A stretch of DNA of 64,000 nt from a virus. Where the stretch lies: the IMG/VR virus record IMGVR_UViG_3300028837_000518, positions 45,320 through 109,319 of that record. The stretch is one strand, 5' to 3'. A program made the position numbers and the translations under genes. Each line of letters begins with the position of its first letter. The stretch's first letter is position 1. Of the stretch, positions 22,679 through 51,465 are shown piece after piece. Under the pieces are notes generated by a model, which saw nothing but the letters and a program-made list of their open reading frames with translations, made no database searches and was not told where the DNA came from.

Positions 22679-22679
22679 G

Positions 22680-34129: not shown

Positions 34130-36494
34130 AATACTTCTCCTTAATCCTCCCGTCCATCACTACACAGGTTTTCAGTTTAAGATTAACCCCACTCTTGGCC
34201 TAGCTATTATAGCGTCACTATTGGATACAGCAGGACACTCAGTGAAGGTAATAGACTTAGAAGCTGTCGGAATAACGCCCAATAAACTACATGCCTACTT
34301 TAAAAATAACAAAGATAATTGGCCAGACATAGTAGGATTTACTGCGTTATCAGTAGCTGCGCGTGGATGTAAAGAATCTATCAGTGCTATACGTGCAGCA
34401 GGATACAATAAAAAAGTTATGGTTGGCGGTATATATGCTACGCTATCCCCACAAGAGCTGATAAACGAGGGCGCTGACTTAGTTGTTACGGGTGAATGTG
34501 AGGGGAATATTGTTGAAGTAGTAGATAATGATATTGTTGGTGTAGTAAGCGGTACAGCAGCACCTATTGCAGATATTCCCATACCTCTTTGGAATAAGCA
34601 TGTTCCCACAATCAATACCTACCAGGGTAATCAACCTCATATTGGCTGGCCCGAAACCGTAACCATGTTTACACGCGGATGTCCACATCGTTGTATCTTC
34701 TGCGTAACCGGTGATACACGTATAGAGACGCTTGCAGGTAGTAAAACCATTATTGAAATTAGCAAGGGTGACGAGGTGCTTACCGCCAATGGTGTAGCTG
34801 CTATACAAGACAAGCAAATACTAAAAGCTACAAACGGTCTTATAGAGATAAATGTCCAAGGTATGTTTAACAACTTAAGACTTACACCAGACCATAAAGT
34901 ATTAGCCATTCGATATAAAGCACTTAACCGTATGGCCTCGGCAGCCAATGTAAAACACCGACCGGCATGGATACAGGAAGAGACGCCGCATTTCGTGCAA
35001 GCCGGTAAGTTACAGAAGGGTGACTTTTTAATTGCCCCCTATCCCACTAAAACTGTTCCAACCCACTATTCTGAAAGTGACTTTGAGCTTTTCGGACTAT
35101 ATATAGCAGAGGGACATATAAGTAAACAATTGCATCGCAAGAATTACTATATGCTTGTATTAACTTTATCAGCTCGTGAAGGGGCTTTGGCTAACCATGC
35201 ATTAAAACTACTACGTAAATTCCTTGCAACAGATAAGGGAAGCATCTATCATAATCAGTGCAACAATACACTACAGGTTACAATAGGAGGGCGCAATAAG
35301 ATTCTATGGTTTAGGGAAACGTTCAGAACAGGCGCAAAACACAAGACACTTCCACCTTGGGCGCTTTTAGCACCTAGGGCACATCAGATTGCCCTACTAC
35401 GAGGTATGTTTTGGGGTGACGGACATAATTCCCATAGCGGCATTCGTTACACAACCGTATCACGAGTTCTTGCAGAGCAATTGCGACTGATACTATTGCG
35501 TACAGGCGGTGTTCCTAATCTTTTTCAGACTCCTGCCAATAAACGACCTAATCAGATACAAGGACGAACTGTAAATGTAAGTGATACTTACGTTGTTACC
35601 CTATTTGGACCGGTAGCCGATGAAATGCGTCATGAGTTCAATTGGGTTATTCGTAACGATAGTGCTAACCGGCGTTTTAATCGAGCTTATAACGTAGCGG
35701 GCAAGGGTTATGCGCTCTATCCTATTCAAGCTATTAACAAAACGCCGTATGAAGGTGTAGTGTATGACTTAACTACTAATGGAACATTTGTTGCAAATGG
35801 AGTGGCTATCTCGAACTGCGCCAATACTATATTCGGACACCAACCCATTAGGTTTCGACCGCCCGAGAACATTGAGCAAGAACTTAGATTCGACAAGGAC
35901 CAGTTTGGAATTCAGTCACTGTTTGTTTATGATGATGAACTCTTTGGCTGCAAGTACTCAAGTGGTTGGTTTGCGGAAGTGATGGAGCGAATAACACCAC
36001 TAGAACTCACGTGGAAAGCACAGGGTCGGTGCTCGGAGCGCTATGTAACCTCCGATGTTTTAGAAAAAGCATACGCAGCCGGTTGTCGTGCTATCATGTG
36101 GGGCATTGAAAGTTTCAGTCCTAAAGTCCTAGATGCTATAAAGAAAGATACAAAAGTTAGCGACATATGGGCAACTCTTAAGCGAGCCAAAGCCGCAGGT
36201 ATTAAAAACTGGGCTTTCACAATGATTGGTAACTATAAGGAGACTGAGCGTGACTTGGCCATAACAGCTGCCGCTCTAGAGAAAGCTAAGGGTATGGGGT
36301 TAATTGACTGGCGTCAAACTACTATCGTTACTTCGTGGCCGGGAACAGAACTGTGGGATATTCAAGAACGTGAGGGTTGGCTGACACCGCCACCTGATAC
36401 AGGACCGCAGACACAGCAAGTATATGCCGATACACCTTGGTTAACTAAAAAACAGATGTTATATTGGCTGGGAAAGTTTTCTACCATTTGTTAG
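34122..36494 (+). CDS. B12-binding radical SAM protein with intein
   Basis: The N-terminal half is a cobalamin-binding-like Rossmann domain (KILLLNPPVHHYTGF, INPTLGLAIIASLLDTAGHSVKVIDLE, DIVGFTALSVAARG, VVTGECEG). The radical SAM motif is TRGCPHRCIF|C, interrupted by a 372-aa intein exactly before the third cluster cysteine. It resumes as CANTIFGHQPIRFRPPENI and continues with LFVYDDELFG and CRAIMWGIESFSPKVLDAIKK. The spliced enzyme is about 418 aa. GTG start overlapping the membrane peptide. The substrate is unknown. Confidence 0.9.
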   Translation: MSKILLLNPPVHHYTGFQFKINPTLGLAIIASLLDTAGHSVKVIDLEAVGITPNKLHAYFKNNKDNWPDIVGFTALSVAARGCKESISAIRAAGYNKKVMVGGIYATLSPQELINEGADLVVTGECEGNIVEVVDNDIVGVVSGTAAPIADIPIPLWNKHVPTINTYQGNQPHIGWPETVTMFTRGCPHRCIFCVTGDTRIETLAGSKTIIEISKGDEVLTANGVAAIQDKQILKATNGLIEINVQGMFNNLRLTPDHKVLAIRYKALNRMASAANVKHRPAWIQEETPHFVQAGKLQKGDFLIAPYPTKTVPTHYSESDFELFGLYIAEGHISKQLHRKNYYMLVLTLSAREGALANHALKLLRKFLATDKGSIYHNQCNNTLQVTIGGRNKILWFRETFRTGAKHKTLPPWALLAPRAHQIALLRGMFWGDGHNSHSGIRYTTVSRVLAEQLRLILLRTGGVPNLFQTPANKRPNQIQGRTVNVSDTYVVTLFGPVADEMRHEFNWVIRNDSANRRFNRAYNVAGKGYALYPIQAINKTPYEGVVYDLTTNGTFVANGVAISNCANTIFGHQPIRFRPPENIEQELRFDKDQFGIQSLFVYDDELFGCKYSSGWFAEVMERITPLELTWKAQGRCSERYVTSDVLEKAYAAGCRAIMWGIESFSPKVLDAIKKDTKVSDIWATLKRAKAAGIKNWAFTMIGNYKETERDLAITAAALEKAKGMGLIDWRQTTIVTSWPGTELWDIQEREGWLTPPPDTGPQTQQVYADTPWLTKKQMLYWLGKFSTIC
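34701..35816 (+). other. intein with LAGLIDADG endonuclease in radical SAM gene
   Basis: 372 aa: block A CVTGDTRIETLAGSKTI, block B LTPDHKVLAI, LAGLIDADG-like helices LFGLYIAEGHI and LRGMFWGDGHN, block F YEGVVYDLTTNGTFVANG, and end ISN before Cys. The +1 nucleophile of the extein is the third [4Fe-4S] cysteine, so splicing restores the cluster motif CPHRCIFC. Confidence 0.93.
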
Positions 36495-36508
36495 TTAAAG
36501 GAGAGAAT

Positions 36509-37210
36509 ATGAGTGATAATATCCTCGTAACAGGTTCGGCCGGGTTCTTTGGTGAATGGGTAATACCGGCACTGGAGGGAGCAGGGTATAATGTTATACC
36601 ATACGATATTGTAGACGGTGATGATGTTGGTAATAGGAGACGTCTAGCCGGCAGACTGCGCTCCTGTCTTGGTGTTGTGCACTTAGCTGGTGTGGGAATG
36701 TTGGCTAAGGGACAAGACTACGGATGGCATCACGCCACCATTTACGAAACGTTTACAAGTACATTTCTGACATTCGTTGCGAGTCGAAGTGCCACCCACT
36801 TTATTCATATGTCGTCTGGTGCTATCTATGGGTTTGGACCCGAGCAAATGAATGGTTGGCTTACAGAGAATGATATGCCAATAAGTGAGTTATTGATCCC
36901 CGACACTCAAGCGCGAATAGATATGCTCAATGCGTACTCGAAAAACAAATGGGAGATTGAAGAGTACTTAAGCAATGCCGACTTGAAAACAAAAGTTGCA
37001 GTCTCTCTGCGCGTAAACTGCATCGAGCCTCATAACGCGGGTGCAGTACAACGCGGTGATCATTGGGGCTGGTGGTGCTCGCAGCGGTTAGTATGTGATG
37101 CTATACTGGCTGGGTTGCGGCGGCAGGAATCTGGTTTCTTTCCTGTAAATGTAGGCGAGGATAACCCTAACCTTGACAAGGAAAACTTAACGGAGCTTTT
37201 ACGCTCATGA
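36509..37210 (+). CDS. NAD-dependent epimerase/dehydratase (extended SDR)
   Basis: ILVTGSAGFFGEW is the NAD-binding GxxGxxG motif. VVHLAGVG, IHMSSGAIYGFG and the catalytic YSKNKWEIEEY (YxxxK) follow. 233 aa is short, missing part of the usual substrate domain. It probably makes an activated sugar for the two glycosyltransferases. GGAGAG precedes ATG 36509. Confidence 0.88.
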   Translation: MSDNILVTGSAGFFGEWVIPALEGAGYNVIPYDIVDGDDVGNRRRLAGRLRSCLGVVHLAGVGMLAKGQDYGWHHATIYETFTSTFLTFVASRSATHFIHMSSGAIYGFGPEQMNGWLTENDMPISELLIPDTQARIDMLNAYSKNKWEIEEYLSNADLKTKVAVSLRVNCIEPHNAGAVQRGDHWGWWCSQRLVCDAILAGLRRQESGFFPVNVGEDNPNLDKENLTELLRS

Positions 37211-37716
37211 CAAATAAAGAGTGGTTGCTGTGTGCTATTGACATGGCCGGATACGACGGTGTATCGCTGCGACAACTCGAAGTAATAATGTTTCTTATCT
37301 ACCACGATAGCCCAATATACCTTCGGGGCGAGGGAAGCAAGGATACATTACCTGAATTAAACTTTCGTCCCGGACTGTTGGGCCCTATCAGTTACGATCT
37401 ACGCGATATGCTCAGAATATTGGTAGACAAGAAATTAATTCAGACAAAAATGCTCTACGAGGGAGACACAGTTCTTCTCTACACAATGTTATACTTTGTA
37501 ACTAATGCGGGACATCATAGAGCTCTGGGTATACGCGGAAGGTATTTGGCCCGAACATTCACTGTACGAACACTCGAAATTACTTTCCCTATTACTTGGC
37601 TGACAAAGTTCCGTATAGTGCTAAAAGAAGTACAATCACAACAATTCTTGAAAGTAATTAAGGCACTTAGTCATAAGTACCCGAACTTTGCATCACCACT
37701 TTTCAGTGTGAACTAG
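37207..37716 (+). CDS. winged-helix-like protein
   Basis: VSLRQLEVIMFLIYHD, PGLLGPISYDLRDMLRILVDKKLIQTK reads like a winged-helix domain with the F-x-GP-S region of SocA/Panacea-type or Paa-type proteins, but similarity is weak. 169 aa. ATG overlaps the epimerase stop. Confidence 0.6.
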   Translation: MTNKEWLLCAIDMAGYDGVSLRQLEVIMFLIYHDSPIYLRGEGSKDTLPELNFRPGLLGPISYDLRDMLRILVDKKLIQTKMLYEGDTVLLYTMLYFVTNAGHHRALGIRGRYLARTFTVRTLEITFPITWLTKFRIVLKEVQSQQFLKVIKALSHKYPNFASPLFSVN

Positions 37717-37740
37717 AACTACTACAATTTATTCCTCATT

Positions 37741-37769
37741 ATAACTACTACCATTTCTGTAGTAGTTAT
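37741..37769 (+). terminator. perfect 11-bp hairpin, terminator or operator
   Basis: ATAACTACTAC pairs fully with GTAGTAGTTAT around the 7-nt loop CATTTCT, in the intergenic gap after 37716. No T-run follows, so intrinsic termination is doubtful. Extra ACTACTAC and CTACTACT copies on both sides suggest a protein-binding site. Confidence 0.5.
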
Positions 37770-37799
37770 ACCTATTCTACTACTAAGTTAAGGAGATAA

Positions 37800-38048
37800 A
37801 TGTTTATCTGTGATAAAGCCGGTTGTAATGTAAGAGTAGATGAATCCGAAGTAATTGAGGTGAGCAGAGATGGTAGTTATTTTCACTTCTGCTGCTACGC
37901 CCATCTCTACGATTGGGCCAAAACCCAAATGTATAATGAGTCAGGCTTAGGCGATAATACCCTCAGTATAACAATATATCAAGCAAGGCGTTTTAGGAAA
38001 TGTCCCATTAACTGGCATATATCTAATTACTTTGCGAGCAGGGAATAG
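37800..38048 (+). CDS. small treble-clef-like protein, 82 aa
   Basis: FICDKAGCNVRV and SYFHFCCYAHLYDWA suggest a MYM/FCS-type zinc fold. AAGGAG precedes the ATG. Function unknown. Confidence 0.68.
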   Translation: MFICDKAGCNVRVDESEVIEVSRDGSYFHFCCYAHLYDWAKTQMYNESGLGDNTLSITIYQARRFRKCPINWHISNYFASRE

Positions 38049-38053
38049 GCGAA

Positions 38054-38260
38054 ATGATTACTGTTAAGTGTCCCAATTGTCAAACAATGATGGATGCGTA
38101 TGACCCTAAGAACTGGCCCGGTCGTGAACCTGATGCTGAGTGTCCGAATTGTGGCGCGCTAGTAACTAGTTTGGGAAATGGAAGCACCTTTGCTCGTACT
38201 GGGGTAGGCTTCGTAGCGGTCTTATCTACACCTATTGCGCAAGAGGACCTTCATCAATGA
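38054..38260 (+). CDS. zinc-ribbon protein, 68 aa
   Basis: ITVKCPNCQTMMDAY...CPNCGALVTSLGNG is a classical zinc ribbon, followed by a short hydrophobic tail. GTG-type overlaps link it to the radical SAM gene downstream. Confidence 0.7.
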   Translation: MITVKCPNCQTMMDAYDPKNWPGREPDAECPNCGALVTSLGNGSTFARTGVGFVAVLSTPIAQEDLHQ

Positions 38261-39078
38261 CACACATACTTCTTAACCCAACATGGTCATGTGTAAATAA
38301 GTGCGCTTATTGTTGGCTTAATAGCACTATAAGGAAAAGACCTGAACTATTAAATGCCAAGACTCGACCATTTGACGACTGGCTAAGTGCTGTTAAAAGA
38401 GAGTTAGTTAAGATAGAAACTACCACTGGTCGCACACCACTCGTCATAGATATTGCCGGCGGCGAACCATTTCTTCTTCCCTGGATTGTAGAGTTCATCG
38501 CGCACTTTCCTGAAGTACCCGTTGGTTTATCTACTAATGGATTACCTGATCACGTACTTCAATTGGTGCGAAGGCCCAAGTTACCCAACCTAATATCAAT
38601 CAATATGAGCTATCACCCCGGCACAACAGAACGCTACCCTGACTACGAGCAATTCTTTCGCAATAGAGTACTAGACATTTTAGGTACTGGATACCCGCTG
38701 CATATAAGCGCTGTAGGTTATGGAGAGGGCGCACGGCTTGTACGCGACCTAGCTGGTTGGGCAACAGACATAGGAATTGACGTATATGTATCTCCCTATG
38801 AGGATATGGCTATGTTGGCAGATAAACAAGAACAAGGTCTCGTGTGTAAAGGTGGAATAAACCATATCGTGGTTGCGCCTGACGGCACTTCATGGCCCTG
38901 TCTCTCTACCTTGCGTTCACCATTCTGGCGCGAGTCAATATTGGGAAACTGGCTAGATGATAACATTGATATAAGCAAGAAGGAACAACCATGCCATATC
39001 TACTGCGTGGATTATTACTTTCTCAAACATCACCATAGAGATGGTGACATGTGGGGCGTGGAGGCACGAGAAGCATGA
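38257..39078 (+). CDS. radical SAM protein with C-terminal cysteines
   Basis: PTWSCVNKCAYCWLN holds the CxxxCxxC cluster motif at residues 12-19, and IDIAGGEPFLLPWI binds SAM. The C-terminal part GLVCKGGINHIVVAPDGTSWPC ... CHIYCVDYY resembles a SPASM/twitch auxiliary cluster region. 273 aa. A peptide- or nucleotide-modifying enzyme is likely; the substrate is unknown. Confidence 0.87.
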   Translation: MTHILLNPTWSCVNKCAYCWLNSTIRKRPELLNAKTRPFDDWLSAVKRELVKIETTTGRTPLVIDIAGGEPFLLPWIVEFIAHFPEVPVGLSTNGLPDHVLQLVRRPKLPNLISINMSYHPGTTERYPDYEQFFRNRVLDILGTGYPLHISAVGYGEGARLVRDLAGWATDIGIDVYVSPYEDMAMLADKQEQGLVCKGGINHIVVAPDGTSWPCLSTLRSPFWRESILGNWLDDNIDISKKEQPCHIYCVDYYFLKHHHRDGDMWGVEAREA

Positions 39079-39299
39079 GAATAGGAAACTTGGAGGTTAC
39101 TTTTGAGCAACTACAACAGGCGCTCGGCTTACCGTCGGGTACGAGAATAGTCAGCATTGATTGTGGCGCACGAGAATCAGCTTGCCGGGTAGTGCATATC
39201 TATGTAGAACATCGGGCACTTAGTGATATTCAGAGTACAACCATACCGCGCGTAATACACAAAACCGTTTGGCATAATACGGATGGTACAAGAGCGTGA
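39075..39299 (+). CDS. uncharacterised protein, 74 aa
   Basis: MRIGNLEVTFEQLQQALGLPSG, then two strands and VVHIYVEHRALSDI. ATG overlaps the previous TGA. Not recognised. Confidence 0.62.
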   Translation: MRIGNLEVTFEQLQQALGLPSGTRIVSIDCGARESACRVVHIYVEHRALSDIQSTTIPRVIHKTVWHNTDGTRA

Positions 39300-40282
39300 T
39301 AATACTACTCGTCCACTATAATCCTCAGCATTACGGTGGCGCAGAAAGTAATCTGCACGACCAGGCCAAGGCACTCACGCTTGCTGGTCACACCGTCATA
39401 ATTGAGCATAAAGACCCAGTGGCAGCATATGAAAAGCACCAGCCAGATATAGTACACTTTCACACTATTCATCTTGGCATAGGCGTAGGTATACTCACGT
39501 GGGCACAAAATCTAGGTATCCCTCATTGCATCAGTATGCATGATTACTGGCCCTTTAGCCGCAACAGACTACTAATCATTGACTTCGATCAGTCCTGTCC
39601 CGGTGTCACGGGAGTCTGCGATAGAGATTGTATACGCTTTAACAATTGTCCGTATGGCCCAGCGCACACCGCGATTCGAGACGCCGTTAACAACACACCA
39701 ACTATTGCGTTTAATACCTACTCGGCTGAAATCTATACAAGAAATGGTATTCGAGTAGATGCTGTTATTCCACACGGCATTGATACCGATTACTTTTGCC
39801 CTGAAGGCGAGAAGGACTGGGGAAAAGTAGTAACAAGCGCAGCATGGGCAAATCAACCACATAAAGGCGTGCATATTCTCAAGGCGGCTCTGCGTCGCGC
39901 AAAGGTAGATGCTACACTTATAGTAGGCACAACACGCGATAACGTTAGAAAAGTATTACAACGATCAGGAATTTGGGTGGGAAGTAGCGTATATGAGGAA
40001 ACATTTTGGCTAAGTTTAACAGAGGCAATGGCGGTTGGTTGTGCTGTTATTGCTACGGATGTAGCAGGTGGTAAGTTTCAAGTTCGACATGGCGCAACAG
40101 GACTAATAGTTCCCAAACTCGATATTCAAGCTATGGCTGACGCAATCACCCACCTCGTTAGTGATCGTGAGCGTGCTATGATTCTCGGCAAGAACGCTAG
40201 GAAATGGGCAGCAGAAAACTATAGCTTCGCACGCTGGGGTCAGAACCTCTTACAATTCTATGAAAAACTTCTACAAGGATAG
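39296..40282 (+). CDS. glycosyltransferase, GT4 family
   Basis: ILLVHYNPQHYGGAESNLHDQAKALTLAGH is the classic GT4 N-terminus. VIPHGIDTDYFCPEG, SVYEETFWLSLTEAMAVGCAVIATDVAGG and ATGLIVPKLDIQAMADAI are the donor-binding region. 328 aa. The start is GTG 39296. An unusual cysteine cluster (CPGVTGVCDRDCIRFNNC) lies in the acceptor domain. Confidence 0.9.
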   Translation: MIILLVHYNPQHYGGAESNLHDQAKALTLAGHTVIIEHKDPVAAYEKHQPDIVHFHTIHLGIGVGILTWAQNLGIPHCISMHDYWPFSRNRLLIIDFDQSCPGVTGVCDRDCIRFNNCPYGPAHTAIRDAVNNTPTIAFNTYSAEIYTRNGIRVDAVIPHGIDTDYFCPEGEKDWGKVVTSAAWANQPHKGVHILKAALRRAKVDATLIVGTTRDNVRKVLQRSGIWVGSSVYEETFWLSLTEAMAVGCAVIATDVAGGKFQVRHGATGLIVPKLDIQAMADAITHLVSDRERAMILGKNARKWAAENYSFARWGQNLLQFYEKLLQG

Positions 40283-40284
40283 TC

Positions 40285-43200
40285 ATGGTAAACTCCGTTG
40301 TAAAACGCGATGGGCGTACTGTGCCCTTCAAACAAGAAAGAATTACAAATGCCATTTTTAAGGCTGCGCAAGCCGTAGGTGGTGAAGATCGTGAACGTGC
40401 AGTTCTAATTTCTACTGCCGTAGTAGATAGTCTTAATGCGCAGTTTACTGACGATAACATACCAAGTGTTGAGCAGATTCAAGATACCGTAGAGAAGATA
40501 CTTGTTGCGTATGGTCACGCAAAGACAGCAAAGGCGTTTATTCTCTATCGTGACCTGCACAGTAAATTGCGTGATATTCACGCACTAATAGATGCTAACG
40601 AGCTAGTACAAGGGTACTTAGATCGCCTAGACTGGCGAGTTAATGAGAACTCGAACATGAGTTACTCGCTACAGGGGCTCAATAACCATATTTTTACTGC
40701 TGTGAATAATGCTTACTGGCTCAATCAACTATATCCTCGCAATATCCGTAATGCACACATGAATGGCGATATTCACATCCATGACCTCTACCTACTGGCA
40801 GCATATTGTTGTGGCTGGAGCTTAGAGGACTTGTTGCTTCGTGGCTTTGGTGGTGTGCCGGGTAAGCTAGAGTGTAGTCCGCCTCGGCACTTTCGCTCCG
40901 CTTTGGGTCAAATTGCTAACTTTCTTTATACTGTTCAGGGCGAGGTGGCGGGCGCAGTAGCAATTAGTAGTTTTGATACACTGCTTGCACCTTATGTTTG
41001 GGCTGATGACTTGGAATATGATGAAGTCAAACAAGCTATGCAAGAGTTCATCTTTAACATGAACGTGCCTACGCGAGTAGGGTTTCAGTGCTTCTCAGAG
41101 GATACTGAGATTCTAACTAGTTATGGGTGGCGAAGTTACCAAGATGTAAAAGTTGACGACGCTATAGCTACATATAATCCCGATACTGAAATAATAGAGT
41201 ATCTCCCGGTACTACGAATGTTTAGTGCACCATACTCGGGAATAATGTACAACCTAAAAAACAGAGTGAATGACCAGCTTATATCACCTGGGCATAGAGT
41301 TGTAAGGCGGGGGTTCAACAATAACAAGAAGATTACTATTCAGCCAATTGAGCAAGTACTAGAGTATAATTCGCCAGTTTGCATACCACTCCTGACAGGC
41401 GGAAACTCTATGGGTAGCAGCGAGCTAAATAATGACCTCGTTCGTATTGCTGCATGGATTATCTCAGATGGAACTTGGGATAAAACTGGTAGAGGTTTTG
41501 GAAGAATAACCATTTTCCAAAATAAAGACAAACACCCCGATGCATACCAGGAGATTATAGAAATCCTTGACAGACTTGAATTGGTCTACTCTATTAATGA
41601 TAGCACTACTGGGTTTGGCTCAGTAACTCAAATACGTATTGACACACCTGGCTCACGACAGTTGGTAGAGAGTTTATGGAAAACTAGCAAAGACCAGGGC
41701 CTAAAGTTTATTCCAGAATGTATATTAAACGCAGATACCCGCCTTTCACGTCTTTTCATAGAAACTTACTTAAAAGGTGATGGCGATACCATCAGAGTAA
41801 GAACATCTACAGCGAGTAAAGAAATCAGGGATGGCTTGATCCATGTAGGAATAAATGCGGGCTTTATGTGTACAGTCTTTACGCGGGAATTTGATGGTCA
41901 TTCGACCAATAAACAGGACTTATATGTTATTAATTTCCTCCGTTCAGAAAATACATATATTCAGGGAGTACGAGAAGTTCCTTATGAAGGTATAATTTGG
42001 TGTCCAACTACTAAGAACGATACTGTTATAGCGCGACGAAATGGAAAGACATTTATCACGGGAAACACACCATTCTCAAATATTACTATGGATGTACAGG
42101 TTCCCGCACACTTAGCTGATGGTAGTGTTGTCTTAGCTGGTGCATATAATCCACATACATATGGCGAGTTTCAAGAACAGGTTAATATGATTAATCGTGC
42201 ATTCGCCGAGGTAATGCTGGAAGGCGATGCCAGCGGGCGAGTGTTTACTTTTCCTATACCTACATACAATATCACAGCTGACTTTGAATGGAATAATCCT
42301 AGCCTTGACGCTATGTGGCAAATGACGGGTAAGTATGGCATTCCCTACTTTGCCAACTTTGTCAACTCTAATATGAATTTAGAAGATACGCGTTCTATGT
42401 GTTGCCGGCTTCATATCAATACCAGTGAGCTAAACAAGCGTGGCGGTGGGCTTTTTGGTTCAAATCCGCTAACGGGAAGCCTGGGTGTAGTTACGCTGAA
42501 TATGGCACGCATAGGATACACAAGCGATACGGACGAGGAGTTTCTAAATCGCGTAGCCGAACTAATGGATATAGCGCGCGACAGCCTACTCCTCAAGCGA
42601 CAGGTTATAGAGGGCTTTACAGAAAAAGGGTTGTATCCCTACTCTAAGTATTACCTCAATAATGTAAAGAGGCGTTTTGACTCCTACTGGGCCAATCACT
42701 TTAACACCATCGGCGTCATTGGTATGAACGAGGCGCTACGTAACTTTATGAATGTAGACTTAACTAGTGAAGTTGGTCGCGCCTTTACATTGCACGTTCT
42801 TGACTTTATGCGTAAACGGCTACTGGCATATCAAGAAGAAACTGGCCAGATGTTTAACCTTGAAGCCACACCGGGGGAAGGCGCATCCTATCGCCTTGCA
42901 CTACTAGATAAAGAAAGATTCCCCAATGCCTTCACGGCTGGACAAAATGTGCCATACTACACCAACTCTACGCAGTTGCCTGTAGATGCAACTGATGACC
43001 TATTTGAGGCGCTTGGCTGGCAGGATGAGATTCAAACTCAGTACACTGGCGGCACAGTCTTTCACGCTTATCTGGGCGAAAGCCTATCAAATACAACTCT
43101 GATTAAGCAAGTTGTCAGGACTATAGCTCTTCGATTTCGTCTGCCATACTTTACTATTACACCAACATTTAGTATCTGTCCCGAGCATGGATATATCACG

Positions 43201-43365
43201 GGGGAACACTTTACTTGCCCAACGTGCGAATCTGACTGTGAAGTTTACTCAAGGGTGGTTGGTTATATACGACCGGTGAAGCAGTGGAATAGAGGTAAGC
43301 AAGCTGAGTTTGCCGAGAGGAAAAGCTTTGAGACAATGCGTGTCGCCGCCGTTCCCAAGGAGTAA
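40285..43365 (+). CDS. nrdD: anaerobic ribonucleotide reductase NrdD with intein
   Basis: Class III RNR reduces NTPs to dNTPs using a glycyl radical. The ATP cone is at residues 1-90 (VVKRDGRTVPFKQERI). The catalytic barrel includes NGDIHIHDLYLLAAYCCGWSL and TRVGFQ|TPFSNITMD, split by a 326-aa intein. The C-terminus has a zinc site CPEHGYITGEHFTCPTC and the glycyl radical loop YSRVVGYIRPV. The spliced protein is about 700 aa, a normal size. No activase NrdG is recognisable in the window. It implies replication in an anoxic host. Confidence 0.95.
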   Translation: MVNSVVKRDGRTVPFKQERITNAIFKAAQAVGGEDRERAVLISTAVVDSLNAQFTDDNIPSVEQIQDTVEKILVAYGHAKTAKAFILYRDLHSKLRDIHALIDANELVQGYLDRLDWRVNENSNMSYSLQGLNNHIFTAVNNAYWLNQLYPRNIRNAHMNGDIHIHDLYLLAAYCCGWSLEDLLLRGFGGVPGKLECSPPRHFRSALGQIANFLYTVQGEVAGAVAISSFDTLLAPYVWADDLEYDEVKQAMQEFIFNMNVPTRVGFQCFSEDTEILTSYGWRSYQDVKVDDAIATYNPDTEIIEYLPVLRMFSAPYSGIMYNLKNRVNDQLISPGHRVVRRGFNNNKKITIQPIEQVLEYNSPVCIPLLTGGNSMGSSELNNDLVRIAAWIISDGTWDKTGRGFGRITIFQNKDKHPDAYQEIIEILDRLELVYSINDSTTGFGSVTQIRIDTPGSRQLVESLWKTSKDQGLKFIPECILNADTRLSRLFIETYLKGDGDTIRVRTSTASKEIRDGLIHVGINAGFMCTVFTREFDGHSTNKQDLYVINFLRSENTYIQGVREVPYEGIIWCPTTKNDTVIARRNGKTFITGNTPFSNITMDVQVPAHLADGSVVLAGAYNPHTYGEFQEQVNMINRAFAEVMLEGDASGRVFTFPIPTYNITADFEWNNPSLDAMWQMTGKYGIPYFANFVNSNMNLEDTRSMCCRLHINTSELNKRGGGLFGSNPLTGSLGVVTLNMARIGYTSDTDEEFLNRVAELMDIARDSLLLKRQVIEGFTEKGLYPYSKYYLNNVKRRFDSYWANHFNTIGVIGMNEALRNFMNVDLTSEVGRAFTLHVLDFMRKRLLAYQEETGQMFNLEATPGEGASYRLALLDKERFPNAFTAGQNVPYYTNSTQLPVDATDDLFEALGWQDEIQTQYTGGTVFHAYLGESLSNTTLIKQVVRTIALRFRLPYFTITPTFSICPEHGYITGEHFTCPTCESDCEVYSRVVGYIRPVKQWNRGKQAEFAERKSFETMRVAAVPKE
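41089..42066 (+). other. intein with LAGLIDADG endonuclease in NrdD
   Basis: 326 aa: CFSEDTEILTSYGWRSY, block B ISPGHRVV, LAGLIDADG-like helices RIAAWIISDGTW and LFIETYLKGDGDT, block F YEGIIWCPTTKNDTVIARRNG, and end KTFITGN before Thr. The insertion lies in the conserved Q-TPFSN motif of the catalytic barrel. Confidence 0.93.
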
Positions 43366-43419
43366 GTAGATGAAAGTATTATTACAAATGAGTGGTTACT
43401 CATGGAGATTATGTCATAA

Positions 43420-44100: not shown

Positions 44101-44120
44101 AAGAGGATAAGAAAGTTCGA

Positions 44121-44263: not shown

Positions 44264-44287
44264 CTTTTGAAGGGGAGCTATAACGTA

Positions 44288-45235
44288 ATGAAAAATGATC
44301 GCTCGCTTATGTTTAGAATGCCTGAAAATCTTTTTCAGGTTCTCGAAAATTATGCCAGCGAATTACACGTAAGTAAATCAGAGTTCATGCGAGGTATGCT
44401 ACGAACTTTAGCATCCAATAAGGCTATAGAACCAGAAGACTTTGCCAAAGAAATTAAAGCTGATATTGTGTCTACCAAAGAACCTCCCAACATAGAGGGT
44501 CATATCGTCTCAACACGGGTACCACTCGGGCACCATGATATAATTTCTAGTTATGCTGATACAAAAAATACCTCAGTTTCAGCCATTGTACGCGCTTTAA
44601 TCAGGGCTTTTGCTGAGGGTAAAACCACAATTTCTAGTAACTTGCCAGTCAGACAACATGTTCGGAAACAAACGAATCCAGATAGCGAAGGAGTTTATAG
44701 AAGTCAAAGTAAGTGGGCTAATGCAGTAAAATCACGCGATAACTATTGCTGTGTTGAATGTGGAGATCAAGGGCCAGTTGTAGCTCATCATATCATTTTT
44801 ATTGAGAGTGGTGGGGAACACACATTAGAAAATGGCATGACTCTCTGTCATCCCTGTCATAGCAAGAAACATACAGTTGACGACTACATAGGCATAGACG
44901 TTCCCAATGCCTGGAAAACCAGGGAGAGAAATTATAAAGGTAACCATGGTGGCGAGACAGAAGCATTCTGGAAGGAGCAATTGGCCCGTCTAAACACTCG
45001 CCGATGTATCAAGTGGACAAGGATAACTAAGAGGTATATTAACACGTTTCTACAAGATATACCTGAACACGTTGTCAAAAGAACAGTCATTACGCTGTGT
45101 CCAGACCCGCGCGCTATTAAACAGAAACCCGTAGAGTCATTCATACCTTATAAGGAAGAGCTTACGCCACCAACTTTGATTTGGTTAGAGGGAGAACAAG
45201 ATGCGAGCACCAAGGAAGAATCTATCAATACATAA
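44288..45235 (+). CDS. ribbon-helix-helix / HNH endonuclease fusion
   Basis: Two N-terminal ribbon-helix-helix-like units (LMFRMPENLFQVLENYASELHVSKSEFMRGML; and STRVPLGHHDIISSYADTKNTSVSAIVRAL) precede an HNH domain: YCCVECGDQGPVVAHHIIF ... LCHPCHSKKH. The HNH part cuts DNA and the RHH units could target it to operator-like repeats. A homing endonuclease is the usual role. AAGGGGAG precedes ATG 44288. The dyad-rich region lies directly upstream. Confidence 0.85.
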   Translation: MKNDRSLMFRMPENLFQVLENYASELHVSKSEFMRGMLRTLASNKAIEPEDFAKEIKADIVSTKEPPNIEGHIVSTRVPLGHHDIISSYADTKNTSVSAIVRALIRAFAEGKTTISSNLPVRQHVRKQTNPDSEGVYRSQSKWANAVKSRDNYCCVECGDQGPVVAHHIIFIESGGEHTLENGMTLCHPCHSKKHTVDDYIGIDVPNAWKTRERNYKGNHGGETEAFWKEQLARLNTRRCIKWTRITKRYINTFLQDIPEHVVKRTVITLCPDPRAIKQKPVESFIPYKEELTPPTLIWLEGEQDASTKEESINT

Positions 45236-45386
45236 AGACACCCATAAGTTACTAAAAGTCATTGCGCTATTCCAAGAGGAAACAATCACGAGTCTTATAC
45301 ATCGACTGGCGCTAAAGGAAGCTAGAAGAATCGGCGAAGAAACAATCCTTCAGCATCTAGCATCACTTCTTCCGAGGGAGATATAA
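45201..45386 (+). CDS. small ribbon-helix-helix protein, 61 aa
   Basis: NLSIHKDTHKLLKVIALFQEETITSLIHRLALKEA is a typical strand-helix-helix DNA-binding unit. It overlaps the end of the HNH gene by 35 nt and the next ATG by one base. Probable repressor binding DNA as a dimer. Confidence 0.75.
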   Translation: MRAPRKNLSIHKDTHKLLKVIALFQEETITSLIHRLALKEARRIGEETILQHLASLLPREI

Positions 45387-45673
45387 TGCAGTATGAGGAC
45401 GTAAAAGTAAGACCTGCGACACATCAGAAACTTCTAATGTTGCGCAAAGCTACTAGTTTACCCATGGTAAGAATTATTGATGCAATGACTGATAAAGCTA
45501 TGCTGATGGTAATGGGCGAGATCGCACCAGAGCTACAGATCAATTGGGGTCGGCAAACGAAAAATGCGCTAGAAGCTCTTGCGGAAGCACAAAAAGAATC
45601 AATTGAGACCAAAGAGCCGCTAATGTGGATTTTTATGAAAAAGATGGGTATGAACAGGAATGAAGATGAATAA
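45386..45673 (+). CDS. ribbon-helix-helix-like protein, 95 aa
   Basis: VKVRPATHQKLLMLRKATSLPMVRIIDAMTDKA has the RHH pattern; the remainder is helical. ATG overlaps the previous TAA. Probably co-regulated with its neighbours. Confidence 0.65.
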   Translation: MQYEDVKVRPATHQKLLMLRKATSLPMVRIIDAMTDKAMLMVMGEIAPELQINWGRQTKNALEALAEAQKESIETKEPLMWIFMKKMGMNRNEDE

Positions 45674-45723
45674 ACAGCAAGGCTTGCTTGACAATAACGA
45701 ACACATACGGTCTTTGCGAATTT

Positions 45724-45752
45724 TTGACAAAAAGAGGACAATGTGCTAGAAT
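45724..45752 (+). promoter_or_regulatory. sigma70-type promoter
   Basis: TTGACA (45724), a 17-nt spacer and TAGAAT (45747) with the extended -10 TGCTAGAAT. It lies 40 nt ahead of ATG 45793 and would drive the RHH/DinG/recombination genes. It supports choosing ATG 45793 over the longer frame from 45688. Confidence 0.75.
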
Positions 45753-45792
45753 CATTCCCCCTGCTTTATCCCGCACCAACAAGTGGGCGCTT

Positions 45793-46392
45793 ATGGTACA
45801 ATCACAAGAAGTAGAACAAGATCGGAAACTTCATCTCTTTAGCCCCGCAGCTAGTCCTGGCGGGGCATCTATACCTGTGGCTAGTAGAGTATCAACGGAA
45901 CTATACGACACTATCACACGGCTCGTAGAACATCCCAACAGTCCCTGGGATACAAAGGCCGAGTTTATGCGCGATGCACTTGATAACTTCATAGACTTTG
46001 TGGCCGGCGGTGTTAGTGATGGAACAGCAATACCGCAAATCATAATGTTAGTCAGAGTACTACGAGATCGTAGCGAACAATCCACAACACTTAGAAAGCT
46101 ATCAAGGAGCGTTTATGATACTCTTGAAGAACTAGAAATCTATTATAGAGATAGGGACCTTGCCAAGCTAGCTATACGAATGGAAGAGACTGCCGAAACA
46201 ATACAGGCAATAGAGGATTACTTCTGGTTCAGACGAGCTATAGAAGGGTTATTTTCCAGTTCTATAACAGTTAAGATTATGGAGGCATTGGAACGCAGCA
46301 ACAATATCGGTCCAAGTGCAAAAGCTATTTGGCAGACCTGGCAAAATCTGAGGGAGGAAATACCCAGTGAAGCCACCGCAAAAACCGAGTGA
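45793..46392 (+). CDS. ribbon-helix-helix domain protein, 199 aa
   Basis: PVASRVSTELYDTITRLVEHPNSPWDTKAEFMRDALDNFIDF is an RHH-type DNA-binding unit; the C-terminal 130 residues are helical (YDTLEELEIYYRDRDLAKLAI). The frame is open back to 45688, but the promoter lies there. It overlaps the helicase start by 26 nt. Confidence 0.7.
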   Translation: MVQSQEVEQDRKLHLFSPAASPGGASIPVASRVSTELYDTITRLVEHPNSPWDTKAEFMRDALDNFIDFVAGGVSDGTAIPQIIMLVRVLRDRSEQSTTLRKLSRSVYDTLEELEIYYRDRDLAKLAIRMEETAETIQAIEDYFWFRRAIEGLFSSSITVKIMEALERSNNIGPSAKAIWQTWQNLREEIPSEATAKTE

Positions 46393-47935
46393 TTTAGGTT
46401 TTCCAGAGTTTGAGGAATTCAGACCTGGTCAAGCTGAGATTATTGCCGAGATTGTTAACATTTTCCAAAGCGGCAAAAGAATCATAATCTTAGAAGCGCC
46501 GACTGGTAGTGGTAAAAGTCTCATTGCTATGTCGGTTATTGCCGCACTGAATCAACGTGCGGTAATAACAACACAGACTAAACAACTGGCTTCGCAGTAT
46601 CACGACGCTCACCCGACCACTACCGTTATTCAGGGGCGAGAGAATTACCAGTGTGCACTACAGCCCGAGTTACCTTGCGCTATAGGTCCATGTATAGCAG
46701 CAAGTTTTGAGTGTGCAAGCAAGAAGTCAATTTGCCCCTACTACCTTGCCAAACAAGACGCACTAAAGTCACCATGTGCCATTATGAACATTTGGTACTT
46801 TATGTATGAAGCCAACTACGTGGGCGGATTCTCTAATAGAGACTTGTTAGTAATAGATGAGGGGCACTTGCTAGAGAGTGCACTAATGAGTTTTATTTCC
46901 ATCGAACTATCTAAGCGGCAGCTTACGCTTCTCGGCTGCGAACTGCCGTCGTTACAAACTACGCAGCAAGTAAGTATGTGGGCAGAGAACGTAATGCCCA
47001 AACTCCAAAGTATGCTTGCTGATGCTATTTACGAAGATAACCCACGGCGATATAGAAACTTACAAACACAGAATAAAAGAGTACAAAGTATAGCAAGCAC
47101 TGACTTAAGTAAGTGGATACTAACGAAGACCTATCATGGTTACACGTTAAAGCCGGTTTGGGTTACAACTTATGGTAACCCGGCTATCTTTCAACACGCT
47201 AGTAAAATCCTAATAATGTCAGCTACAATTAGAGACGCCAAGCAGTACTGTAAGTGCTTGGGTATACCACAAAGTTCACTGCATTACATGGAAGCCCCAT
47301 CACACTTTCCCAAAGAACACAGACCAATAAACTTTTGGCCTGTTGCCAAGATAGGTTATAAGTCAACCCCACGTGACTATAGTAAGCTTGTAAAAGCTAT
47401 TGATACTATTTTGGAACTTCATAGGGGCGATAAGGGAATCTTGCACACTGTCTCATATAAACTGCTAAAGAAAATTGTAGCTGCTTCACGACATAATGGC
47501 CGTATACTAACACATGATTATAAAAATAGGGAGGAAGTTATAAGAAGGTTTAAAGAGTCTAAGAGAAACCCTGTTCTAGCATCACCATCTATTGGTATTG
47601 GATTGGACTTACCAGATGATGAATCACGATTTTGTATTATTGCCAAAGTGCCCTGGCAAGATATGTCGGATGAACAAGTAAAGAAACGTGTTAATGATGA
47701 TCGTGGCTGGTACTCTTGGAATACAGCTTGTGCAATGATACAAATGAGTGGGCGGTGTATAAGGTCGGATACCGATTACGCCACCACTTATCTACTTGAC
47801 GGACATGCTGGATGGTTTATGCAAAGGAATGCACGACTATTCCCAATTTGGTGGAGGGAATCTGTATACCATGTAGAAAAACCGTCGCAGTTTGTTCTTC
47901 CTCGCACTGTAATGCAACCCAAACTAGCCTGGTAG
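46367..47935 (+). CDS. DinG/XPD-like Fe-S helicase
   Basis: An SF2 helicase with Walker A EAPTGSGKSLIAMS (near residue 44), a four-cysteine Fe-S region (YQCALQPELPCAIGPC ... CPYY), Walker B VIDEGHLLE, MSATIRDAKQY, and motif VI IQMSGRCIRS. It unwinds DNA 5' to 3' by family knowledge. 522 aa is compact. GTG start. It heads a recombination/replication set with nucleases at 48697 and 49726. Confidence 0.9.
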   Translation: MKPPQKPSDLGFPEFEEFRPGQAEIIAEIVNIFQSGKRIIILEAPTGSGKSLIAMSVIAALNQRAVITTQTKQLASQYHDAHPTTTVIQGRENYQCALQPELPCAIGPCIAASFECASKKSICPYYLAKQDALKSPCAIMNIWYFMYEANYVGGFSNRDLLVIDEGHLLESALMSFISIELSKRQLTLLGCELPSLQTTQQVSMWAENVMPKLQSMLADAIYEDNPRRYRNLQTQNKRVQSIASTDLSKWILTKTYHGYTLKPVWVTTYGNPAIFQHASKILIMSATIRDAKQYCKCLGIPQSSLHYMEAPSHFPKEHRPINFWPVAKIGYKSTPRDYSKLVKAIDTILELHRGDKGILHTVSYKLLKKIVAASRHNGRILTHDYKNREEVIRRFKESKRNPVLASPSIGIGLDLPDDESRFCIIAKVPWQDMSDEQVKKRVNDDRGWYSWNTACAMIQMSGRCIRSDTDYATTYLLDGHAGWFMQRNARLFPIWWRESVYHVEKPSQFVLPRTVMQPKLAW

Positions 47936-47964
47936 GTTGCTTTGCAGATATATAAGGAGTAATA

Positions 47965-48636
47965 ATGACCGATCAGAACGCAGTACCGAAGAAATGGTTT
48001 GAAGAGACACCTGATAGTATTGTTGTGCTTGTTTCGGGCCTTGATATTATCCCCACACAACGCTTCAATAGAGAGGGTGAGCAGGAGCTCATGGACACCA
48101 TTGTTCTGCAATGCGATGACCTCACTGGGCGATTTCCTGATGGCACCACACAGTGGTTTACGCCCAGCAACCACCCTAACAGTAAGTGGCAGAAGTGGCT
48201 CAAGGTTGTAAAGGCCAAGAGTGGAGTGAAGGTGCGGAGCTCTAAGGACCTAGTGGGCCGATACTTCATAGCCGAGTTCCATCAGTGGGAGTGGGGTGGC
48301 GGCCTGCCAGCTAGTCGCGTACTTGAACTTGTCGAGGAGTTGCCGGGCCTAGAAGTCGCTGAGACTAAGGCTCGTGAGTTCGGTGGAGGTTCTACAACGA
48401 GTTCAACAGGAGCTACTTTCGATGACCTTACAGATGAACAGAAAGTAGTTATCGAGCTTATTGACGGCAAGACCTACGAGGCATTTTTAACCGAAGCCGT
48501 CACTGACGCAAGGGTTTCCAGTAACCCAGCGCTGCTAACACGACTTGTAGACCCTCAGAGACTATTGGTTGAGGCGATGATTGACCTTGGTTACCTCAAC
48601 CTCAATGATGACGAGACATATTCGGCATCACAGTAG
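47965..48636 (+). CDS. uncharacterised DNA-metabolism-associated protein
   Basis: 223 aa with a beta-rich N-terminal half (DSIVVLVSGLDIIPTQRF, GRYFIAEFHQWEWGG) that could be an OB-fold, then a linker and a helical C-terminus. Its place between helicase and nuclease suggests an ssDNA-binding role, but I see no diagnostic motif. GGAG precedes the ATG. Confidence 0.65.
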   Translation: MTDQNAVPKKWFEETPDSIVVLVSGLDIIPTQRFNREGEQELMDTIVLQCDDLTGRFPDGTTQWFTPSNHPNSKWQKWLKVVKAKSGVKVRSSKDLVGRYFIAEFHQWEWGGGLPASRVLELVEELPGLEVAETKAREFGGGSTTSSTGATFDDLTDEQKVVIELIDGKTYEAFLTEAVTDARVSSNPALLTRLVDPQRLLVEAMIDLGYLNLNDDETYSASQ

Positions 48637-48643
48637 TTTACCA

Positions 48644-48682
48644 TTCATCCTCTCGTCAAACCAGGCTTGGCGAGAGGATGAA
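48644..48682 (+). terminator. 16-bp stem-loop between genes
   Basis: TCATCCTCTCGTCAA pairs with TTGGCGAGAGGATGA (one G-T pair), loop ACCAGGC. It fills the gap between the 47965 and 48697 genes. No T-run follows, so it may act as an RNA-stability or rho-type element rather than an intrinsic terminator. Confidence 0.6.
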
Positions 48683-48696
48683 AACATAGGAGATTA

Positions 48697-49359
48697 ATGA
48701 TCCTTGTAGATAAGTTTGAACCACAAGAAGTACTAGAGGCCCTAAGCGAACACGCCCGGCAAGCATCAATGGATACAGGTGATTACGCCTTTACTACATG
48801 TAGTGGGCAAAGCGTACTTATAGAGCGCAAGCAAGTTAGTGACCTTCTACACTCTCTAAGCACAGGCCGACTAATGGATCAATTACGCCGCATCATCATA
48901 GAAAGTGATATTCCCATCCTACTCGTCGAGGGATTCATCACAATTACTAAAGATGGCTTTGTACGATACAGGGCTGGTAAGTCAAGGTGGCGCTATACCT
49001 CCGTACAAAATCTAATCTTAACAGCACAGTTATCAGGTGTTTATCTTATTCAGTCACCAAGTCAATATAATACGCCGCGAATAATTCTTAGTCTTTATAA
49101 GTACTTTCAGAAGCCAGAACATACTAGCTTAGTACGGCAGAAAGTCTTTACCGTTTTCCCCAAAGATAGAGATTATAAGCGTGCTGAAATGCTTATGAGT
49201 TTACCAGGTGTGGGCGTAGAAATTGCTACACGGATGGTAGAGAGATTTGGTACGCCAATGACAGCATTTAGCGCATCAGATGAAGAGCTAAATGAAGTAG
49301 GTGGTCTTGGCCCTAAAAAAATCAAAGCCATAAGAAAGTTTCTCGATGACCCTCGATAG
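48697..49359 (+). CDS. XPF/ERCC4-type nuclease
   Basis: ILVDKFEP, MDTGDYAF and VLIERKQVSDLL supply the D...GD...ERKxxxD active site of XPF/MUS81 nucleases. The C-terminal tandem helix-hairpin-helix is LPGVGVEIATRMVERFG ... VGGLGPKKIKAI. It cuts branched DNA at forks or junctions. 220 aa, nuclease plus (HhH)2, without helicase domain. Confidence 0.92.
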   Translation: MILVDKFEPQEVLEALSEHARQASMDTGDYAFTTCSGQSVLIERKQVSDLLHSLSTGRLMDQLRRIIIESDIPILLVEGFITITKDGFVRYRAGKSRWRYTSVQNLILTAQLSGVYLIQSPSQYNTPRIILSLYKYFQKPEHTSLVRQKVFTVFPKDRDYKRAEMLMSLPGVGVEIATRMVERFGTPMTAFSASDEELNEVGGLGPKKIKAIRKFLDDPR

Positions 49360-49732
49360 GCCCGATAACTATAATGAACGCCTTCACTACCTTGTGGCTA
49401 AGTATGTAATGGGATGGGAACTAAAACATATACAAGAAGGGTGTCCTAATTACACGGATTATGGAATGTGGTGGCACTACCTTACATTTCCGTATAAACA
49501 TAAGAGTTGGTGGAGACCCACGCATGAAGATGGCGACACGGAGGAAGTACTAAAAAGACTACACAAGCTAGGTTATGACGTACACATAGTTCGATTTGCT
49601 GAATCACATTACTGGGAGTGTATTATACACATACCGGCAGGACTTAGTTTTACTGCAAGACATAAAATAAGAGGACATGCTATCTGTCTTGCAGCATGTT
49701 TGGCAGTGGGGTTAAAGGTAACTACATGTTAG
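49346..49732 (+). CDS. phage ABA-sandwich domain protein
   Basis: VAKYVMGWELKH, THEDGDTEEVLKRLHKLGYDVHIVRF, and HAICLAACLAVGL follow the ABA-sandwich layout of small phage proteins. 128 aa. It overlaps the genes on both sides. Confidence 0.78.
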   Translation: MTLDRPDNYNERLHYLVAKYVMGWELKHIQEGCPNYTDYGMWWHYLTFPYKHKSWWRPTHEDGDTEEVLKRLHKLGYDVHIVRFAESHYWECIIHIPAGLSFTARHKIRGHAICLAACLAVGLKVTTC

Positions 49733-51465
49733 ACCACCTCTCGTACTCTAGTATAGTAAGATTTATTATGTGTCCTAGGTCATGGGAATACCACTATATT
49801 CACCGTATCGCACGCCCAGTTTCTAGCGCACTCTTTGTGGGAAGTTGTACGCACGGTGCCCTAGAGCATAACTATAAACAGAAAGTGTTAACGCATGAGG
49901 ACTTGCCAGTAGATGAAGTTCTACAGTGGTTCTCAGATCGGTGGGACACTTTGGACCCATCAGTGGGGCGTCCCGCAAGCAGTACCGGCGCTGAATCATT
50001 GGGTATAGACTGGAAAAACAAAGACCCAGGCCTTGAGAAAGACATGGGTGTAGCCATGGTTGGTAAGTATCAGAAAACAATAGCCAAGACCGTACAGCCT
50101 GTAGTTGCTGAACTTGGCTGGAGTCGGAAAGTAGATGATATGAAAATCATCGGTCGCGTAGACCTTATTGATGATAACGCTATCGTTACAGACTTTAAAA
50201 CAGCAAGCCGGCGACCGCGAAGAGGTAGCTGGCATACAGACTTACAACCAACATTCTATGCACTTGGTATGAAAAGCGCAATAGTTTTTGAGTATCATTA
50301 CATGCTTAAGTTAAAATCGCCAGCTGTAGAAAAGTACCGCACGCAACGAACGAAATCTGACATAGAATGGATAGTGAAAGTACTTATACCGCCAATCGTA
50401 AAAAGCATTCGCCGAGGTATATTCTTCCCTAACACGCAAACATGGAAGTGTTTCTCGCTAGATACTGAAGTACTAACTAATAATGGATGGAAGGGGTATA
50501 ATAGCTTATCTTATCAGGATGATGTTTTAACCCTAAATCAGCAGACGGGTTTTCTAGAGTGGCAAAAACCCTATGCCATCTTTACACGGAAGTATAATCA
50601 ACCTAAGCGAATAGTATCATTCGATGGTAGGACAATTAGCTTTAGTGTTACACCAGATCACCTAATGCTGAGTCGTTCCTGCGGTGCTAAGCAGTATAAC
50701 CATCCTTGGCAACTTAAGACTGCACAGTCTATCGCCGGCGTAAGTTCGAGAGTTTTCCGAATAAGCGGGATAATGGAGCGAGATAACTACCCTATCTCTA
50801 ACGACCTACTACAACTGACAGCGTGGGCACTAACCGAGGGTCACTTTCGACAGTGCTCTCAAGCCATAGAAATAGCACAGAAAACTGGTACAAGATATGT
50901 TAATGACATTCAGGATATATTAAATAGATTATCGTACTCATATACACGAAGAGATAGAAAAGATGGCTGCACTATATTCTATATTAAGGCAAGATCAGGT
51001 AGACAACTTAGACAGATACAGCCCGATAAGAGTGCGCAGCCTTGGTTATGGAAACTATCCAAAAAGCAGTTTGACCTATGGCTAGAAACTTTTGTAAAAG
51101 GAGATGGTAGTGCTCGTAGGGGTGGCTATATAATTAGTCAAAGAATTGAAAATACTATTGATCTTATTCAAGGTGTATGTATCTCGCATGGTTATAGTGC
51201 TATAAAAAATCCAGTACCAAAACATTCTAGTTTCGGTGGTTCTGCATATTCTTTATCCATCACTAAAAACAGACAGGAGTATAAAATGGGTGTTGGTCCG
51301 GCAACAAAGTTTTATCATAATGAATCAGCCAGTGCCGTTTGGGATTGCGCAGTCCCTAATGGACTTATTGTAACAAGAAGAAATGGTAGGCCACTAATAA
51401 CGCATAATTGTTCACCATCATACTGTGAATACTATGACATATGCCGAAGGGAGAAACAGTTGTGA
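49726..51465 (+). CDS. RecB/Cas4-like Fe-S nuclease with intein
   Basis: PD-(D/E)XK exonuclease. The N-terminus SYSSIVRFIMCPRSWEYHYI carries the first cluster cysteine. GRVDLIDDNAIVTDFKTA holds the catalytic D...DxK. The C-terminal cluster CSPSYCEYYDIC is separated from the rest by a 320-aa intein inserted directly before its first cysteine. The spliced protein is about 259 aa. It probably processes DNA ends for recombination, alongside the protein at 51462. Confidence 0.9.
   Translation: MLDHLSYSSIVRFIMCPRSWEYHYIHRIARPVSSALFVGSCTHGALEHNYKQKVLTHEDLPVDEVLQWFSDRWDTLDPSVGRPASSTGAESLGIDWKNKDPGLEKDMGVAMVGKYQKTIAKTVQPVVAELGWSRKVDDMKIIGRVDLIDDNAIVTDFKTASRRPRRGSWHTDLQPTFYALGMKSAIVFEYHYMLKLKSPAVEKYRTQRTKSDIEWIVKVLIPPIVKSIRRGIFFPNTQTWKCFSLDTEVLTNNGWKGYNSLSYQDDVLTLNQQTGFLEWQKPYAIFTRKYNQPKRIVSFDGRTISFSVTPDHLMLSRSCGAKQYNHPWQLKTAQSIAGVSSRVFRISGIMERDNYPISNDLLQLTAWALTEGHFRQCSQAIEIAQKTGTRYVNDIQDILNRLSYSYTRRDRKDGCTIFYIKARSGRQLRQIQPDKSAQPWLWKLSKKQFDLWLETFVKGDGSARRGGYIISQRIENTIDLIQGVCISHGYSAIKNPVPKHSSFGGSAYSLSITKNRQEYKMGVGPATKFYHNESASAVWDCAVPNGLIVTRRNGRPLITHNCSPSYCEYYDICRREKQL
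50449..51408 (+). other. intein with LAGLIDADG-like domain in RecB/Cas4 nuclease
   Basis: 320 aa: CFSLDTEVLTNNGWKGY, block B VTPDHLMLS, DOD-type helices LLQLTAWALTEGHF and LWLETFVKGDGSA, block F-like WDCAVPNGLIVTRRNG, and end PLITHN before Cys. It shares start and end motifs with the NrdD intein. The +1 residue is an Fe-S cysteine. Confidence 0.93.

Follow-up and report, generated by a model that had tools for sequence, protein, structure and literature searches.

Two inteins of a tailed phage are inserted exactly at cysteines of iron-sulfur (Fe-S) cluster motifs, and we consider it probable, at roughly 80%, that both are ordinary class 1 LAGLIDADG inteins lying at conserved motifs that offer Cys as the +1 residue, the choice of site reflecting motif conservation, the cost of loss and the nucleophile rule. 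The window analyzed here, a stretch of 64,000 nucleotides, corresponds to positions 45320-109319 of an IMG/VR virus record of 109,319 bases (IMGVR_UViG_3300028837_000518), which we assign to a tailed phage because it carries terminase, portal and tail-type genes. The two inteins interrupt a B12-binding radical SAM protein (RadSAM) and a RecB-like nuclease (RecB). Both had been described in an earlier note on this DNA, whose outer limits, 34701 and 51408, are indeed the first base of the RadSAM intein and the last base of the RecB intein. Both are real, and the note had omitted two others, in the anaerobic ribonucleotide reductase NrdD and in an RNA ligase. The window therefore holds four inteins, two of them at a cluster cysteine and all four at a conserved motif, and scanning the three remaining stretches of the record revealed no further intein.

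The RadSAM gene shows the following features (window positions; evidence in brackets):

34122..36494, plus strand: B12-binding radical SAM protein precursor, 790 amino acids (418 once spliced) (Pfam B12-binding 8e-14, Radical_SAM 2e-14; PDB relatives 9ccb, 6fd2)
34680..34694, plus strand: first (34680-34682) and second (34692-34694) cluster cysteines, the second being Cys-3 to the splice site (translation, alignment with the Streptomyces phage SF3 homologue)
34701..35816, plus strand: RadSAM intein, 372 amino acids, class 1 (Cys1, Asn last), with the LAGLIDADG motifs LFGLYIAEG and LLRGMFWGDG (Pfam, junctions, model, tree)
35817..35819, plus strand: +1 Cys, predicted splicing nucleophile and third cysteine of CX3CX2C once spliced (translation)

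The open reading frame (ORF) is open, and its translation gives the junctions TRGCPHRCIF/C1VTGDTRIE...VANGVAISN/C+1ANTIFGHQ (a slash marks each splice point), so that the intein stops before the third Cys of CPHRCIFC, as the earlier note had stated; the homologue of phage SF3, which is intein-free, retains the cysteines (SRGCPYDCGFC). Pfam matches to the precursor comprise B12-binding, Radical_SAM, LAGLIDADG_3 and Intein_splicing, and the NCBIfam "exception" model NF038136, built for the Rv2578c case, matches the protein across the N-junction. From the CX3CX2C present once spliced and the B12-binding domain, the host is predicted to be a radical SAM enzyme of the B12-binding type. Block A of the intein reads CVTGDTRIE, with a Cys1 that is invariant across 21 aligned inteins, block B (TxxH) is present as TPDH, with a His also invariant in the alignment, and the C-terminal Asn is followed by Cys +1 (AISN/C), as class 1 requires. 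The penultimate His of block G is replaced by Ser, likewise in two related inteins (L054 and L162, VSN/C). The element is thus a class 1 intein by its sequence and is predicted to splice. Its AlphaFold model (pLDDT 77.9, pTM 0.75) matches the solved LAGLIDADG inteins TliVMA, PI-PfuI and PI-SceI in a fold search (best E 7e-18), which assigns it, at the level of the model, a Hint fold with a homing endonuclease domain.

The second host and its intein are arranged as follows:

49696..51465, plus strand: RecB-like PD-(D/E)XK nuclease precursor, 589 amino acids (269 once spliced) (PDDEXK_1 1.3e-19; exonuclease PHROGs; phage homologues)
49771..49773, plus strand: N-terminal cluster Cys (MCPRSWEYHY) (kept in intein-free homologues)
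50449..51408, plus strand: RecB intein, 320 amino acids, class 1, with the LAGLIDADG-like motifs ALTEG and FVKGDG (junctions, tree)
51409..51444, plus strand: C-terminal cluster CSPSYCEYYDIC, whose first Cys (51409-51411) is the predicted +1 nucleophile (translation, homologues)

This ORF is open as well, with junctions NTQTWK/C1FSLDTEVL...RPLITHN/C+1SPSYCEYYDIC by translation, and the precursor matches PDDEXK_1 and Hint in Pfam. All class 1 features are present: Cys1 (CFSLDTEV), the block B His (TPDH) and the LITHN/C terminus. Intein-free homologues from Geobacillus phage TP-84 and two other phages (Geobacillus/Bacillus phages) retain CPR... and CGYCSFKDIC, confirming with the exact junctions that the intein stops before the first Cys of the C-terminal cluster. 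The cysteines form an AddB/Cas4-like set, C26 plus CX4CX5C (CX2CX5C in the homologues), and by this pattern RecB is a putative Fe-S PD-(D/E)XK enzyme; the spliced sequence found no match in the PDB at E up to 1. Inteins are known from other phage RecB-like PD-(D/E)XK hosts, namely mycobacteriophage exonucleases, where they lie in the PD-(D/E)XK motif itself, unlike the window intein at the C-terminal Fe-S cysteine (PMC5050341); mycobacteriophage inteins generally adjoin conserved motifs (PMC5050341). By this difference the insertion point in the window looks new. The pattern HN/CxPx[YF]Cx5C, aimed at recurrence of the RecB site, matched only the phage of the window.

The class 1 junctions of both hosts thus designate the cluster cysteine as the +1 splicing nucleophile, as claimed before. 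In the scheme that we favor, class 1 inteins with LAGLIDADG homing endonuclease domains, if these are active in homing, would settle at conserved motifs offering such a Cys, and excision would let the +1 Cys complete the cluster motif, so that a functional enzyme would be expected only once splicing has occurred. The unspliced RadSAM precursor nevertheless retains a CX3CX2C string, because Cys1 of the intein fills the motif position. Near-identical phage contigs carrying the RadSAM gene were found three times (intein whole in 2, partial in 1) and with the RecB gene once; no empty RadSAM or RecB site occurred among these few, and a back-translation search for viral relatives of the two exteins returned only near-identical ones.

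We asked whether the radical SAM site recurs, using a DNA pattern for the N-junction (CX3CX[YFW]C running into intein block A) in bacterial and viral sequences. The pattern matched at least 120 bacterial and 35 viral loci. Among the matches listed, about 118 of the 120 bacterial loci carry, by translation, an intein at the third Cys of the radical SAM motif, in two types. One is Rv2578c/PA0069/SPL-like (NPYRGCxHxCxY/C...SHN/CFAR), mostly from actinomycetes and proteobacteria; the other is AmmeMemoRadiSam (LTFGMLGCDxHCxY/CFTGDT...VSN/CQNW), of which L054 was confirmed as TIGR04337. The real viral matches form nine groups including the phage of the window, a lower bound for third-Cys inteins, and the remaining ones are chance matches. 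Two viral scans of the C-junction further revealed inteins at the first Cys (L164, L166, L167, L171) and at the second Cys (L176, L187), so that all three cysteines of CX3CX2C are occupied, in different phages. Other second-Cys matches were TerL-like (L174/175/179/181), and those of L173/L180/L185 head-protein-like; both sets were left out of the Fe-S count. As judged from these junctions, the CX3CX2C motif, and notably its third Cys, is a true recurrent intein site. The kind as such is already established by MoaA and Rv2578c; in the open-access literature we did not find the third Cys treated as an intein site across families.

Some of these loci deserve a description of their own. In L164:2825-5670 (identical in L165, L168 and L170) two inteins lie within one CX3CX2C, at the first and third Cys (HN/CPFACIY/CFPSDTK), and the second is spread over two overlapping ORFs, the latter opening with an endonuclease-like stretch, which would fit either a naturally split intein or a frameshift. 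The second-Cys intein of L187:11634-13979 has an MTES_1575 (Vsr-like) nuclease domain instead of LAGLIDADG. L150 and L176 encode related radical SAM/SPASM proteins with sister inteins (SH-aLRT 97), placed at the third Cys in L150 but at the second in L176, as though the insertion had shifted along the motif.

A phylogeny of complete inteins separated the two window cases. The RadSAM intein forms a clade (100/99) with that of a viral B12-radical SAM protein (L162) and those of two Chloroflexota AmmeMemoRadiSam enzymes (L054, L068). The AmmeMemoRadiSam inteins, including a gammaproteobacterial one (L342, matching at 1e-16), are its closest relatives (E 7e-18 to 3e-15) and occupy the same site, although their hosts belong to another radical SAM family and are cellular rather than phage proteins. 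Rv2578c-like inteins group with L141, L144, L148 and L157 in a second clade (100/99); in this NF038136 family and its PA0069/SPL-like relatives the intein also begins exactly at the third Cys, in another radical SAM family and from another intein lineage than in the window. At least two lineages thus appear to hold the third Cys, that of the window being shared with AmmeMemoRadiSam enzymes and another B12-radical SAM protein. The closest extein to RadSAM (L203; 26% identity, E 3e-26) is interrupted at the same Cys by a different mini-intein, suggesting that the site has been occupied repeatedly. In the same tree the NrdD intein comes out as sister of the RecB intein (100/98); on this placement RecB and NrdD inteins are one phage lineage and the RadSAM intein a separate one, and the RecB site would be a separate insertion by a NrdD-type phage intein. 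The two cases had been presented as independent, which fits their different lineages, while RecB does not stand alone.

That two of four inteins fell on cluster cysteines could be coincidence within a preference for conserved motifs, an explanation we regard as somewhat unlikely overall. It draws on the other two inteins of the window, likewise at conserved motifs and off any cluster cysteine, and on three cluster-motif proteins that carry no intein:

41089..42066 (ORF 40285-43365), plus strand: NrdD intein, GFQ/C...FITGN/TPFSN, +1 Thr, off cluster cysteine (Pfam, translation)
22983..23483 (ORF 22623-24239), plus strand: mini-intein of 167 amino acids, +1 Ser, in an RNA ligase (T4 Rnl1-like), EKLDG/C...VLVHN/SLGIMY, directly behind the KxDG (KLDG) nucleotidyl-transfer motif
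38257..39078, plus strand: intein-free radical SAM-like protein with CVNKCAYC, in-genome control (Pfam)
29211..30626, plus strand: intein-free radical SAM protein with CDHNCPWC, in-genome control
31304..32179, plus strand: intein-free DUF5131 protein with GCTPISLGCKNC, in-genome control

The RadSAM case is no accident of site, however, because its lineage occupies the third Cys of several hosts; chance is therefore disfavored for RadSAM and may apply to RecB. We also considered that Fe-S cysteines are favored intein sites in general, through Cys chemistry or cluster-driven selection, which appears improbable. A census of viral loci with a block-G pattern blind to both host and +1 residue (at least 120 loci; +1 Thr 54, Ser 43, Cys 23 and Leu 1 among the matches listed) contained, by inspection, a single Fe-S cysteine position, that of L203, in about 120 viral inteins among those listed, and on this count a general preference in viruses was rejected. 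Such pattern samples favor canonical inteins and their proportions are rough, and host classes, unless confirmed by a family search, were assigned by eye; the other sites include terminases, Walker A, DEAD-box, ribonucleotide reductases and ThyX. Cultured-phage relatives (361 records for the RecB intein, 79 for the RadSAM intein) reside in nucleotidyltransferase, portal, methyltransferase, helicase and phosphoesterase hosts, and the distinct junctions read in Chloroflexota genomes, mostly in DnaB, RtcB, GyrB and ribonucleotide reductase, included none recognized as an Fe-S Cys. What speaks for a general preference is the number of radical SAM families concerned, together with two gammaproteobacterial metagenome-assembled genomes (MAGs G007 and G008), picked for a radical SAM intein, where 3 of 6 inteins besides the selecting one lie at Fe-S cysteines. 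These MAGs carry L342 and two inteins in hosts confirmed by family search: the aconitase AcnA (L334:1-3258), interrupted at CxxC (GYGCTT/C...SVHN/CIGNSG), and a family-4 uracil-DNA glycosylase (L335:1-1935), interrupted at NILK/CRPPQNR. We take both insertion cysteines to be cluster ligands. Because of these aconitase, glycosylase and AmmeMemoRadiSam cases, Fe-S-cysteine inteins constitute a recurrent minority class; the suggestion that cluster cysteines are favored thus holds for the radical SAM motif and such cases and fails as a general rule.

A further alternative is an adaptive redox switch, in which oxidation, through a Cys-3/Cys1 disulfide, keeps the precursor unspliced and the oxygen-labile enzyme forms only under reducing conditions; as an explanation of the sites we hold it unlikely. 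Its model is the MoaA intein of Pyrococcus abyssi, as described in reviews, where a native Cys-3/Cys1 disulfide blocks splicing in an oxygen-labile radical SAM host (PMC10663303, PMC3922620). The Cys-3 spacing given there agrees with an intein placed at the third CX3CX2C cysteine, and the same pair is present in the window RadSAM intein (CIF/C); MoaA is archaeal with measured disulfide control, whereas in the phage B12-radical SAM protein such control can only be proposed by analogy. Every third-Cys insertion has a Cys at -3 owing to the CX3CX2C spacing, that is by construction, and the aconitase insertion (GYGCTT/C) likewise yields one; the lack of empty sites among the few near-identical contigs would also agree with a switch. 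A MoaA-type switch would then come free with third-Cys insertion and may operate in RadSAM. Against it as a general cause, the RecB intein has no Cys-3 (TWK/C), its nearest N-extein Cys being far upstream, so that gating by this route is unlikely there; the first-Cys insertions of L164 and L167 lack Cys-3, the nearest Cys of the second-Cys insertion of L176 is at -4, and the NrdD and ligase inteins of the same genome are off clusters. Redox gating, raised earlier for both inteins, is therefore plausible for RadSAM by its MoaA-like geometry and improbable in this form for RecB. Third-Cys inteins, moreover, abound among the matches listed in Amycolatopsis, Micromonospora and Lentzea, actinomycete genera that we take to be aerobes, so the anaerobic host put forward as a reason is not needed and was rejected as an explanation.

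Several results weigh against our preferred explanation of ordinary inteins at conserved motifs. The third radical SAM Cys is apparently commoner as a site than the first or second (the patterns being unequally sensitive), for which conservation alone gives no reason; a single origin of all third-Cys inteins stands unrejected (p-AU 0.227); between families, the DNA flanking the third Cys shows only moderate similarity (23 of 54 bases for the window and L054), which leaves the route of one lineage across families unexplained; and several Fe-S-cysteine inteins per genome in two MAGs may hint at a real preference. In a bolder reading, which we find improbable, some lineages have specialized on the radical SAM motif, moving between families at the third Cys; the geometry common to these sites would supply each enzyme with a redox checkpoint, and the inteins would act as oxygen gates of maturation with Cys1 masked by the Cys-3 disulfide or even by a cluster assembled in the precursor.

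These observations bear on an old question, whether inteins only parasitize their hosts or can serve as useful sensors. At the third-Cys site the arrangement has been repeated many times in nature, across several enzyme families, two or more intein lineages, and aerobic as well as anaerobic hosts; the shared Cys-3/Cys1 pair makes the redox-switch claim directly testable, its support in radical SAM hosts coming so far, as far as we found, from MoaA alone, and the first-Cys insertions and the RecB intein provide built-in controls without Cys-3. A further intein of an Fe-S pathway host, that of M. tuberculosis SufB, is described as sensitive to oxidative stress (PMC6195587, PMC8891592); SufB itself is an Fe-S scaffold.

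Two minor observations lie outside these subjects. In L319, L321 and L371 the +1 Cys resembles the catalytic Cys at the N-terminus of glutamine amidotransferases, for example PurF (HN/CGMMSARSEV), so that splicing or C-cleavage would unmask an amidotransferase-like Cys. On the minus strand of the window, positions 52770-54374 encode a long protein with degenerate alanine/leucine/serine-rich repeats (LADVSLARDNAISALALAAGT...).

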